A stretch of DNA of 64,000 nucleotides from Halovenus aranensis. Lineage in GTDB: Archaea; Halobacteriota; Halobacteria; Halobacteriales; Haloarculaceae. Under the pieces are notes generated by a model, which was not told the DNA's origin, made no database searches, and saw only the letters and a program-made list of their open reading frames with translations. Below, in pieces: positions 242 to 54,409 of the stretch (positions are counted from its first letter, which is position 1; every line of letters starts with the position of its first letter). Made by a program: the position numbers and the translations under genes. The stretch is taken from contig NZ_FNFC01000009.1 in NCBI RefSeq assembly GCF_900100385.1, forward strand, positions 62,001 through 126,000, in the 5' to 3' direction.

Positions 242-309
242 AGCTCGGCAGACGTGTTCGAGGTGAATAGCAGTTTCTTCCTGCGGTCGATAGCCGGGGC
301 TGTGGCGTC

Positions 310-963
310 TTATGCCTCCGGGTCGAACGCGTCGTAGACGGAGTTCTCGACCAGCGTCTTCACGCCTTTGCGGAGACGAATCGAGGCCGCCTGTGTCGTG
401 ATGTCGAGTTTCTCGCCGAGTTCCTGGAGCGTCGTCTCGCGTGGTACCTCGAAGTAACCGGTCTTGAGCCCCTCCCAGATGATTTCGAGCTGTTTCTGTG
501 TTAGGCCGAACGCCTCCTCGGACATGTGGAATGTGCCGTCGCGCATCACCGTTATCTCGGTCTCGATTGGCTCCTCGGAGATGGTATCCCAGAACTCGGT
601 AAACGACGCCTTATCGGGGAAGCTCATCTTCGTATACCAGCAGGAATTCATATTCTGTGCGTTGAGGTGAACGCCGCCGGCGTTGACCGCCGCATTGTAC
701 ACCCGCTCGTCGACCGTCCCCGACCCCACGTAGATATGATACAGCGTCCGGCTGTCTTCCTGGAGAATCGTCTGCAACGTCTCGACGTGCTGGTCTGCAT
801 GTGCACGCGCCTCGAAGCGCTCGGTGTTGCCACGGACCGAACAGGTGAGCCGGAGCGGAAAACGGCTGGTCGCGGTGAGATGGCTAATATTGACCTTGAT
901 ATCCGGGTACGTGTCCCGTATATCAGAGAGAACATCTCTGTTGTTTATGAACTCTACGTACAT
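310..963 (-). CDS. Bat-type (HTH_10) transcriptional regulator
   Basis: This 217-residue protein is a putative DNA-binding regulator of the bacterio-opsin-activator-like class found throughout haloarchaea. The C-terminal 55 or so residues form the HTH_10 domain, starting at [18 protein letters not shown] and including [18 protein letters not shown] and [15 protein letters not shown]. The N-terminal 150 residues are a variable domain of the type that precedes HTH_10 in this class; I see no PAS or kinase motif in it. It lies 97 bp downstream of a 'GRY..VSPVF' family gene on the same strand, the arrangement repeated at 53159-54409. Its target genes are unknown; autoregulation of the pair or control of folA downstream are only guesses. 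Confidence 0.85.
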
Positions 964-1060
964 GCGTTCCTGTTGCGCTGTAGTTGCAAGTATGTTCCCC
1001 TGACTCGCTTAGACAGCCAGAACGGATAGATAACTCGAACTGTCTCACCGGAGGCGAACG

Positions 1061-1594
1061 CTACCACGTCAGCTCGAAGGCCGCCTGTTCGTCCGGGCCT
1101 GGTGAGGTTTCCGAGAGGTCGACAGAGCCGTCAGACAGTTGCCGCCCTGCGCCCAGAAACACACCCTTGAAATTCTCCAGCGGATACGGCGCGCCCTGTT
1201 TGATGCCGATGCGAGCGCTGTGGTCTCCCGTCTCCTCGACGACGTACCCACCCTCGTAGCCGCCACGGTGGGCATCTCTGTCGGCCTCGACGATAAACTG
1301 TAGCCCGTCGGCGACTGTCTCGATGTGGTCCGGCCACGGGGCAGCTTTTGCCTGCTCGATACCGGCTTCGGTGATAGTCTTGCTCCCGACCTCGTCTTTG
1401 ACCTGGTCCATCGCTTTCGCGTAGTTTAGCGCATCGTGCCAGGAATTCTCGGAGATGCTGTCTACGTCGAGGTCGTTCTCAGCGAACATCTTCCTCGTCT
1501 TTCGTTCAAACACTGGCGAAACTTTGCCAGTACTCTCTACAAACGCGAGAATGTACCGGCCAACTATCTCAGTTCCCTGTTGCATGCATCTCAT
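1061..1594 (-). CDS. 'GRY..VSPVF' family protein, copy 1 (unknown function)
   Basis: I do not recognise a named family with confidence. The 177-residue protein shares a clear pattern with three others in this window (44513-45055, 45163-45705, 53864-54409). The pattern is an N-terminal GRYILAFVES and VSPVFERK, a central GSKTITEAG, WPDHIETV, an A-R pair near GGYVVEE, a PYPLENFKGVF segment, and a C-terminal AFELTW ending in Trp. No signal peptide or membrane segment is visible, so it is probably cytoplasmic. ATGs also exist at 1612 and 1585; 1594 is chosen because it puts GRY about 11 residues from the start as in the paralogues. It is directly upstream of a bat-type regulator. The order of elements vaguely recalls heme-NO-binding/V4R-type sensor proteins, which is speculation. 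Confidence 0.75.
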   Translation of the reverse strand: MRCMQQGTEIVGRYILAFVESTGKVSPVFERKTRKMFAENDLDVDSISENSWHDALNYAKAMDQVKDEVGSKTITEAGIEQAKAAPWPDHIETVADGLQFIVEADRDAHRGGYEGGYVVEETGDHSARIGIKQGAPYPLENFKGVFLGAGRQLSDGSVDLSETSPGPDEQAAFELTW

Positions 1595-1769
1595 ACTCCG
1601 AGGGTATGTCATTTAAACTGCCATTTTTAATACTAAACTATAGCTGTGAAAACATGTTTGCTTCGATGGAGATGACAGTTAGGGCGTACGAATTCCTCGC
1701 AGACAGACCTCGGACACGCCACGGACCACCAGTGAACGAGTCACCGAACCGCCGTGTCGCTGAAGACTG

Positions 1770-44512: not shown

Positions 44513-45055
44513 TCACCAGGTCAGTTCCCAGGCGTGACTTTCGCTCGTGTCTGGTTCAGTTTCGTCTAGGGTCGGCCGCGAGTCCTCGGGGCCAAACTCG
44601 GCTGCGACGTGTTCGAACACCCCTCGTGCGAACCCCGGGCCGTACGGGAATCCCTGGAGGATGCCAACTCTCGCGGCCCTGTCTCCGATTTCGGCGGCGG
44701 TGTAGTTTCCCGCTGGGTTCTCCAGACTGCTGTTTCTGTATGCCTCGCGGTGTTGCTCGATTAACCTCCTAAGCGCCTCCGCAATCGTCGAAACGGAGTC
44801 GGGCCACGGAATCTCCCTCGCCGCCGTGGTGCCGCCCTGTTCCATCGTCTTGGAGCCAGTCTCGTCTCTGACCTCGGTAAAGGCCAGGACCACGTCTTCG
44901 GTCCGGTACCACGCTTCCGGGTCGACGCGGGGGAGGTGTTTCTCGAAGATTGCAATCACCTTTCGCTGGAAGACAGGAGAGACCTCACCCGCGCTCTCGA
45001 CGAACGCGACGACATACCGCCCGTCTGTTTCAGACCCTGGGTCGTAGGACTTCAT
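44513..45055 (-). CDS. 'GRY..VSPVF' family protein, copy 2 (tandem duplicate)
   Basis: This 180-residue protein of unknown function has every family mark: GRYVVAFVESAGEVSPVFQR, WYRTEDVVLAFTEV, GSKTMEQGG, IPWPDSVSTIAEALRRL, NPAGNYTAAEIGDRAARVG, FPYGPGFARGVF and the terminal AWELTW. It is the downstream member of a tandem pair with 45163-45705. Their first 40 and last 45 residues are almost identical, and nucleotides around the stop codon, including flanking CACCAGGTCAGTTCCC, match too, so the duplication is recent or kept alike by gene conversion. Unlike copies 1 and 4, no bat-type regulator follows; a hairpin does. Confidence 0.75.
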   Translation of the reverse strand: MKSYDPGSETDGRYVVAFVESAGEVSPVFQRKVIAIFEKHLPRVDPEAWYRTEDVVLAFTEVRDETGSKTMEQGGTTAAREIPWPDSVSTIAEALRRLIEQHREAYRNSSLENPAGNYTAAEIGDRAARVGILQGFPYGPGFARGVFEHVAAEFGPEDSRPTLDETEPDTSESHAWELTW

Positions 45056-45162: not shown

Positions 45163-45705
45163 TCACCAGGTCAGTTCCCAGGCGTGACTTTCGCTCGTGT
45201 CTGGTTCGATTTCGTCTAGGGTCGGCTGCGAGTCCTCGGGGCCAAACTCGGCGGCGACCTGTCTGAACACGCCGCGTGCGAACCCCGGGCCGTACGGGAA
45301 CCCTTCGAGGATGCCGACTCTGACCGTTCGGCCGTCGTGCTCCTCGACGGTGTAGTTGCCCGCCGGGTTCGTTTGCGTGCTGTCTCTGTATGCCTCGCGG
45401 TGTTGCTCGATTAAGACCCCCAGCGCCTCCGAAAGCGTCGAAACAGAGTCGGGCCACGGAATGGCTTTCGCTGCCTCGGCCCCGCCCTGTTCCATCGTTT
45501 TTGAGCCAATCTCGTCTCTGACCTCGGTAAAGGCCAGAACCACGTCTTCGGTCCGGTACCACGCCTCCGGGTCGACGTGGGGGAGATGTTTCTCGAAGAT
45601 GTCGTTTACTTTTCGCTGAAAGACAGGAGAGACTTCGCCCGCGCTCTCGACGAACGCGACGACGTACCGCCCGTCTGCTTCAGACTCCGGGTCGTAGGAT
45701 ACCAT
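45163..45705 (-). CDS. 'GRY..VSPVF' family protein, copy 3 (tandem duplicate)
   Basis: This 180-residue protein is the upstream member of the tandem pair; the two ORFs have exactly the same length. It keeps GRYVVAFVESAGEVSPVFQR, GSKTMEQGG, IPWPDSVSTLSEALGVLIEQ, NPAGNYTVEEHDG and AWELTW. Differences cluster in residues 75-130, for instance GAEAAKAIPW against GTTAAREIPW. The ATG at 45705 aligns with that of copy 2; in-frame sequence further upstream has no similarity. The gene lies about 100 bp from the duplicated tRNA-Arg end at 45810, so it may have arrived with an integrative element. Confidence 0.75.
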   Translation of the reverse strand: MVSYDPESEADGRYVVAFVESAGEVSPVFQRKVNDIFEKHLPHVDPEAWYRTEDVVLAFTEVRDEIGSKTMEQGGAEAAKAIPWPDSVSTLSEALGVLIEQHREAYRDSTQTNPAGNYTVEEHDGRTVRVGILEGFPYGPGFARGVFRQVAAEFGPEDSQPTLDEIEPDTSESHAWELTW

Positions 45706-53158: not shown

Positions 53159-53797
53159 TTAGGGCTGTCTCTGTAAGTAGTAGTCGGTGACGTTCGATAG
53201 TGCGCGGCGCAAAAGCTGAGACACGGCCTGCTGTGTAACTCCCATCTTGTCTGCTATCTGTTGGAGCGTACACTCCCTTGGAATAGCAAAATACCCGTTT
53301 TGTCGCGCCAACGAGAGCAGCTGTCGTTGTTTCTCAGTGAGGGCAGCGACGGCATCGCTCTCTTGCTCGGAGGTAAGAATGTACTGTGTCTCGACACACA
53401 TACCATTTCTCCGACACTCTTCGACGAGCGTCCTATAATCACGAACGGTCGGAAAAATCATCGTGAGATGCCACCCACTACCCGAAGTTACCGCTTCGAC
53501 AATCGTGGCACCGACATCGACAACGGTTCGTTGCGTCTGGACCTCGCCGATTCCCGAGGCATACTGCGTAAGAAGCAGGTCGTGACCGACCAGTTCGCTG
53601 TTTTGTACTGTCTCGTCTGTTTTCGCGTTCTGAACGAGAGTGGAACAGATTTCTGTCTCGGCACGAATCAGCACCTGAACGTCTCCTTGAGGAGTCAACG
53701 TAATATCTTCGAACGCCAGTCGCGAGCACCCGTCGGTGGCGCGAAATGCCTCTTCTAAGAGGGGGGAGTCAACCGAAAATTCTGTTTGAACTGCCAT
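53159..53797 (-). CDS. Bat-type (HTH_10) transcriptional regulator, second copy
   Basis: This 212-residue protein has the same plan as 310-963. A variable N-terminal domain of about 150 residues (ending ETQYILTSEQESD) is followed by the HTH_10 domain: LTEKQRQLLSLARQNGYFAI, PRECTLQQIADKMGVTQQAV and SQLLRRALSNV. The N-terminal halves of the two proteins show little resemblance, while the DNA-binding ends clearly match. It lies 66 bp downstream of a 'GRY..VSPVF' gene on the same strand, repeating the arrangement at 310-1594. The region is less GC-rich than its neighbours. Confidence 0.85.
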   Translation of the reverse strand: MAVQTEFSVDSPLLEEAFRATDGCSRLAFEDITLTPQGDVQVLIRAETEICSTLVQNAKTDETVQNSELVGHDLLLTQYASGIGEVQTQRTVVDVGATIVEAVTSGSGWHLTMIFPTVRDYRTLVEECRRNGMCVETQYILTSEQESDAVAALTEKQRQLLSLARQNGYFAIPRECTLQQIADKMGVTQQAVSQLLRRALSNVTDYYLQRQP

Positions 53798-53863
53798 TTG
53801 TTAGTAGTCTATACTCTAGTAGGGAGACGGTCGAGAGACATAAATGTGCGTATAGATGGGACG

Positions 53864-54409
53864 CTACCACTCAGTCTTCCATGCGAACCGTTCGTCTGTG
53901 TCTTCAGCTATCTGTTCGAACGTCGGAATCGAGTCCTCCGGTCCCCACTGCTTGATGATTCCTGTGTAGATTCCTTTCACGAACGGCTGTGGGTACGGAT
54001 ACTCGTTTGTAACCCCAAGCCGTCCCGAGCGTTCGCCACGACGTTCGAACGTATACTCACCTGCTGGTTTGTCCTGTGTCGTGTCTCTGTATACCTCGTC
54101 ACTCACTTGAAGAGCGTTCAGTCGTTCGAACGCTTCGAAAACCGAGAGCCCAGAGTCGAATGAGAGTCCACGCGCAGTCTGTTCACCGCCGGAAATCATC
54201 GTCTGTGAGCCGACCCTCTCAAGTATTGCGTAGTACGAATCCCGGACCGCTTCAGTCTGGTACCACCCATCAGATGCTAGCTCCCCGATTCGTTCCTCAA
54301 ATGTGTCTCTGACCTTCCGCTCGAAAACGGGCGACACTTCTCCGGCCGCCTCCGCGAACGGAACAACGTATCTGCCACTTACTTTCGCCTCTGCGTCGTA
54401 CATTGGCAT
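53864..54409 (-). CDS. 'GRY..VSPVF' family protein, copy 4
   Basis: This 181-residue protein of unknown function keeps GRYVVPFAEAAGEVSPVFER, the GSQTMISGG segment, a KPAGEYTFERRGERSGRLGV stretch, YPYPQPFVKGIYTG and the terminal FAWKTEW. It is more diverged from copies 2 and 3 than those are from each other, and is about as far from copy 1. It stands immediately upstream of a bat-type regulator. GC content is below that of surrounding housekeeping genes, which suggests later arrival. ATG 54403 is an alternative start. Confidence 0.75.
   Translation of the reverse strand: MPMYDAEAKVSGRYVVPFAEAAGEVSPVFERKVRDTFEERIGELASDGWYQTEAVRDSYYAILERVGSQTMISGGEQTARGLSFDSGLSVFEAFERLNALQVSDEVYRDTTQDKPAGEYTFERRGERSGRLGVTNEYPYPQPFVKGIYTGIIKQWGPEDSIPTFEQIAEDTDERFAWKTEW

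Follow-up and report, generated by a model that had tools for sequence, protein, structure and literature searches.

RESULTS

Gene pairs in the window

The window, that is, the whole 64,000-nucleotide stretch of Halovenus aranensis DNA that was analyzed, carries two loci at which the gene for a protein here called GRY adjoins the gene for a BAT-HTH_10 regulator. The features considered are as follows.

1061..1594, minus strand: GRY copy 1, H-NOX/V4R-fold protein of 177 amino acids (aa); other possible starts at 1612 and 1585
310..963, minus strand: regulator 1, BAT-HTH_10, 217 aa, 97 bp directly downstream of GRY copy 1
53864..54409, minus strand: GRY copy 2, H-NOX/V4R-fold protein, 181 aa
53159..53797, minus strand: regulator 2, BAT-HTH_10, 212 aa, 66 bp directly downstream of GRY copy 2
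44513..45055, minus strand: GRY copy 3, 180 aa, unpaired, in tandem
45163..45705, minus strand: GRY copy 4, 180 aa, unpaired, in tandem with copy 3
271..1769, no strand: two-gene stretch missing at the syntenic site of Halovenus salina; edges approximate
1650..1659, no strand: 10-bp perfect dyad AAACATGTTT, candidate operator some 60 bp ahead of the GRY copy 1 start codon; exploratory

An earlier note on this DNA had described two same-strand gene pairs with gaps of 97 bp and 66 bp, and the open reading frames were confirmed at the coordinates above. The two GRY proteins, which it had assigned to one family, are homologous (27% identity, E = 3e-22). Neither copy 1 nor copy 2 gave a significant family match in Pfam or NCBIfam. 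The note had treated the family as a two-copy case; however, the H. aranensis genome (3.29 Mb) encodes 20 GRY paralogues, and four of them are in the window, including the tandem pair at 44513-45055 and 45163-45705, which had been missed. Pair 2 (53159-54409) has a third-position GC content of 0.56 to 0.59, a hint of transfer, measured against a median of 0.80 over the predicted genes of the window, which come from a gene caller that favors high third-position GC.

In Halovenus salina JCM 30072, 10 GRY copies were found, and most other haloarchaea have 0 to 2 family members. The family occurs in 40 of 148 genomes within the taxonomic family and in 53 of 196 sampled genomes elsewhere in the order, where nearly all carriers have 1 to 3 copies and one genome (G114) has five; these figures describe a sample of genomes, and gene calls outside annotated records were made in this analysis. 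A first scan of named genomes with GRY copy 1 as the query gave no match, and a search of genomes of the class with DUF2378 gave a single match, below threshold. Long open frames at three loci (L070, L087, and L093) hinted at gene fusions, and gene calling resolved them into separate neighboring genes.

Fold and relatives of GRY

H-NOX (HNOB, PF07700) is a haem-based NO/O2 sensor domain that includes the sensor of soluble guanylate cyclase, and V4R (PF02830) is the phenol sensor domain of MopR/PoxR/DmpR, also present in MJ1460 and homologous to TRAPP Bet3. V4R has been described as a ligand-binding domain tied to signalling and transcription regulation (PMC2253512). An AlphaFold model of GRY was built from 99 family members (pLDDT 96.7, pTM 0.91), and its best PDB matches were H-NOX domains (Foldseek; E = 1.9e-5, probability 1.00). 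The model has the H-NOX fold, with a TM score of 0.65 to 0.69 spanning about 185 columns. A search of a viral structure library gave no match.

At the sequence level, the PF07700 profile matched none of the 99 family members. Pfam V4R matches were obtained for 22 of the 99 (best E = 4.8e-8), with one relative, L091, just short of the curated cut-off (30.4 against 31.0), and DUF2378 matches were obtained for 27 (best E = 3.4e-5). Neither window copy matched the V4R profile. By its common fold and detectable sequence relationship, GRY is a protein of the V4R/H-NOX superfamily.

Haem and zinc ligand residues

In phenol sensors, the V4R domain coordinates a structural zinc through three Cys and one Glu (PMC10715001). 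The four V4R-type Cys columns contain Cys in 55, 45, 45, and 47 of the 68 relatives outside the expanded clade and in 0, 0, 0, and 1 of the 31 members of the VSPVF clade. The window copies have no Cys of such a zinc site.

In the column aligned to the proximal haem ligand of H-NOX, 62 of the 68 relatives outside the VSPVF clade have Tyr, and 22 of the 31 within it have His; this stretch aligns weakly (E = 0.08 to 0.15), and the His is to be taken as no more than a lead. A His at alignment column 110 was found in L010, L013 to L018, L021, L022, L055, and others. At the proximal His position, window copy 1 has D105 and copy 2 has Gln, and the Y-x-S-x-R haem propionate motif is missing in the alignment of GRY to 6ocv. 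We therefore judged it unlikely, on these residues, that the window copies bind haem in the manner of H-NOX.

Common descent of the paired regulators

BAT-HTH_10 proteins are a standard type of haloarchaeal regulator (PMC11218638). The DNA-binding ends of the two window regulators had been reported as alike, and HTH_10 was found in both regulator 1 (E = 9e-13) and regulator 2 (E = 1.4e-17), at 48.3 and 63.7 bits against a cut-off of 23.1. Their N-terminal domains had been called unrelated, a description that does not hold: both are probably diverged BAT-type domains (PF15915; 28.2 bits in regulator 2, over the cut-off of 25.8, and 23.6 in regulator 1, just under it), the BLASTP alignment of the two proteins runs from residue 80 on, and the ten paired regulators of H. 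aranensis and H. salina form one clade, which indicates shared descent. Regulator 1 was modeled as tandem ferredoxin-like repeats, and a comparison of the regulator fold with the PDB gave no convincing match.

The ten paired regulators are monophyletic among 31 HTH_10 proteins (bootstrap 93, SH-aLRT 94), and none of 500 label shuffles was as clustered. Each member of the clade adjoins an H-NOX-fold gene, in one of three different orders. A profile of the BAT domain of the paired regulators retrieved exactly the 7 + 3 paired ones from the two genomes (E <= 1e-12). The next best regulators elsewhere, other Halovenus members included, reached at most 134 bits, against 160 to 204, and had no GRY neighbor; at the 29 loci checked for the closest regulators outside the two species, no family member was nearby.

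On the GRY side, the paired copies fall within a single clade of 31 members and are dispersed across it. In a mirror-tree test of the seven H. aranensis pairs, GRY and regulator distances were uncorrelated (r = 0.17, P = 0.25); with ten rows the test was significant, but this merely reflects orthologues. The scatter of the GRY copies and the unmirrored distances make either partner exchange or saturation possible.

The order of the two genes is not fixed. In the earlier note the regulator lay downstream at both loci, and this is not the rule: the ten pair loci show GRY>HTH (in the two pairs of the window), HTH>GRY (L010/L116, L012, and L022/L121), or a convergent order (L016 and L017/L120); for the convergent pairs, a shared operon is excluded. 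One segmental duplication of a fixed cassette is ruled out by the differing gene order, despite the single origin of the regulators. The earlier note had likewise considered one simple segmental duplication unlikely, but its argument from unrelated N termini was wrong, because the regulators share descent. At one H. salina locus (L120:3977-5931), a single HTH_10 gene has a GRY gene on either side. After the HTH>GRY pair L010 of H. aranensis come an MCP gene and an open reading frame resembling a response regulator, but H. salina has another gene in that place.

Pairing in Halovenus and elsewhere

There are 28 HTH_10 genes in H. aranensis and 27 in H. salina. Seven of the former and three of the latter directly adjoin GRY. 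Under random placement of genes (20,000 simulations), 0.35 and 0.15 such adjacencies were expected, and values as high were reached in 0 and 11 simulations, respectively; the paired copies are non-independent by shared descent, so these figures measure clustering and not ten separate events. A third to two-fifths of the GRY copies in the two genomes lie beside a BAT-HTH_10 regulator, and 13 of the 20 in H. aranensis have no directly adjacent HTH_10 gene.

Outside the two Halovenus genomes, none of 73 family loci had an adjacent HTH_10 gene (about one expected by chance), the nearest being 2.7 to 3.8 kb away. The HTH search model was sensitive enough, because none of the 21 unpaired HTH_10 genes in H. 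aranensis escaped it. The adjacency survey proposed earlier thus had a split outcome, above chance in the two Halovenus genomes and 0 of 73 elsewhere. A general haloarchaeal pairing is ruled out by the latter figure and, since the survey was negative outside the two genomes, the GRY-regulator pairing is a genus-level innovation of Halovenus.

Neighbors of the family in other settings

In Halobacterium, HemAT acts as an O2 transducer (PMC3579733). Three loci (L059:4054-6035, L057:2604-4588, and L066:2633-4620) encode a family member that bears the Cys residues and whose gene shares 1 nt with the start of an MCP transducer gene. The MCP partner also scores with Protoglobin (HemAT type) in L059 and L066 and with the MCP domain only in L057 (Pfam); this hemAT link is drawn from three related genomes, which belong to another haloarchaeal family. 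Members of a second subgroup (L062, L125, L023, L122, L081, and L090), which includes one copy per Halovenus genome, lie 5 to 20 bp downstream of a gene for a protein of 253 to 303 aa, identified as a rhodanese-type sulfurtransferase in L062 (Pfam).

Further arrangements were seen at single loci or in small groups. L110, L112, L095, and their relatives are convergent to a conserved MarR-type regulator gene 11 to 80 bp away. Two VSPVF-type family members flank a cytochrome P450 gene at L055:4147-6878, a locus from a genome that is not of Halovenus, and at L018:3496-5074 an unpaired copy is directly upstream of a gene for an HFX_2341-type protein.

Synteny and selection

Both window pairs are absent as whole units from the syntenic sites of H. 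salina (gene names at these sites were assigned from sequence by eye). At the site of pair 1, about 120 bp separate the DHFR and MATE genes in H. salina, against about 1.6 kb in the window. At the site of pair 2, the interval between the riboflavin-synthase-like and TatD-like genes contains a 217-aa open reading frame (LUD-like) and no trace of the pair. In three orthologous pairs, both genes are under purifying selection (dN/dS 0.05 to 0.14).

These data bear on whether the linkage is historical only, two genes that became neighbors by accident having been copied through duplication and transfer with no functional tie between them. The single origin of the paired regulators, the restriction of the association to one genus, and the atypical third-position GC of pair 2, with its hint of transfer, would agree with such a history. 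However, all 10 of the 10 members of the regulator clade have kept their GRY neighbor despite changed gene order, and selection has acted on both genes of the orthologous pairs; we consider this explanation improbable.

Promoters and dyads

Besides the candidate operator of GRY copy 1, a 14-bp perfect dyad, GCAACAATTGTTGC, lies about 45 bp before the start of the unpaired GRY copy 3, and dyads CTTACATATGTAAG and CTGCATATGCAG precede the paired copies L012 and L017. In an exploratory comparison, dyads 30 to 90 bp before the start were commoner at the GRY genes of H. aranensis than at 67 control genes (Mann-Whitney P = 0.0016). Strictly conserved blocks of 15 to 17 bp (TATGCATGTATATTC; CAACCCTGCATATGCAG) stand out from the diverged DNA around them in the promoters of GRY genes from two orthologous pairs. 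As judged from sequence, the pattern of dyads and blocks agrees with dimeric regulators controlling the GRY genes.

Such control would also be expected if GRY were the output of the system, with the HTH_10 regulator controlling the neighboring and other GRY genes and the ligand-binding protein acting elsewhere, for example, as a buffer or carrier for a hydrophobic molecule or an intermediate of electron transport. The dyads lie at about -45 to -60 relative to the start codons of GRY genes, at unpaired copies too, which speaks for this alternative, as do the conserved promoter blocks, the varied gene order, and the excess of GRY genes over paired regulators (20 versus 7). On the other hand, the fold superfamily is mostly sensory, and relatives overlap an MCP/HemAT-type transducer gene. 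We rate GRY as output somewhat unlikely.

Possible autoregulatory dyads could also belong to a selfish, toxin-antitoxin-like unit, in which GRY would be the toxin and the autoregulating HTH protein the antitoxin; two small genes in many copies, present or absent as a unit, would suit it as well. Yet the H-NOX fold is not among the known toxin folds, and 13 GRY copies stand without an adjacent HTH_10 gene. The BAT-HTH_10 partner is, moreover, of a regulator type that is standard for haloarchaea (PMC11218638). A toxin-antitoxin unit is thus highly improbable.

DISCUSSION

The reading that we prefer, with roughly even confidence, is that a haem-free receptor of the H-NOX/V4R fold modulates the BAT-HTH_10 regulator encoded next to it and that the receptor gene is in turn under feedback control. 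It builds on what was observed, namely, the fold, the linkage to one regulator clade, the absence of whole pairs, and the purifying selection; from these we infer ligand binding, protein contact, and feedback regulation. GRY would be a stand-alone ligand receptor without canonical haem or zinc ligands, sensing a small cytoplasmic molecule, probably hydrophobic or redox related, and would modulate the adjoining regulator by predicted contact. The regulator, in turn, probably binds the dyads just upstream of GRY genes, which would close a feedback loop. The module may have arisen in the Halovenus ancestor and multiplied there, being gained or lost as a unit. The earlier note had suggested a sensor or modulator role for the protein upstream of the regulator. 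That role is supported because GRY has the fold of signal domains, is nonrandomly linked to one BAT-HTH_10 clade, and has relatives that overlap a HemAT-type gene; counting against it are the restriction of the pairing to two Halovenus genomes, the 13 H. aranensis copies that lack a directly adjacent HTH_10 gene, the unmirrored GRY and regulator distances, and the convergent order of some pairs.

Haloarchaea encode HTH_10 regulators in large numbers (28 in H. aranensis), and many short ones lack a recognized sensor domain. If our reading is true, a separately encoded receptor would explain what such short regulators listen to. The results suggest that Halovenus has previously undescribed, home-grown two-gene sensing modules, and they place an H-NOX-fold family in haloarchaea and tie it to aerotaxis genes. 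A wider proposal, and an improbable one, is that this undescribed haloarchaeal receptor family serves as a detachable sensor of several outputs, HemAT-type transducers in some genera and BAT-HTH_10 regulators in Halovenus. With V4R-type Cys lost and His gained in most copies of the expanded clade, some copies may then have newly acquired haem-based gas sensing, their ancestor having been haem-free.

Among known systems, the Bat-type regulators without PAS/GAF domains, NarO and DmsR, share the short architecture of the paired regulators, but the passages of PMC11218638 that describe them mention no separately encoded H-NOX-fold partner. DUF2378 (PF09536), a domain of unknown function, gave weak matches only, in the 27 of 99 members, and window copy 1 has none. 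MetOD1 of methanogen two-component systems (PMC5847659), compared with GRY by description alone, is likewise a lineage-specific archaeal sensor domain of the HNOB/V4R/ATC-hydrolase group, but it lies within two-component signalling proteins. With V4R, GRY shares the C-terminal strand-helix-strand pattern, and most relatives outside the VSPVF clade keep a Cys/Glu set resembling the zinc site; in contrast, the zinc-site Cys are gone from the VSPVF clade, both window copies included, and GRY has a gene of its own, with no fusion to its regulator. From H-NOX, GRY differs in giving no PF07700 match, in having Asp (copy 1) or Gln (copy 2) at the proximal His position, and in lacking Y-x-S-x-R. It nevertheless resembles H-NOX in overall fold and length and, like bacterial H-NOX, which is used as a separately encoded sensor next to signalling proteins, it would be a sensor encoded beside the protein that it serves.
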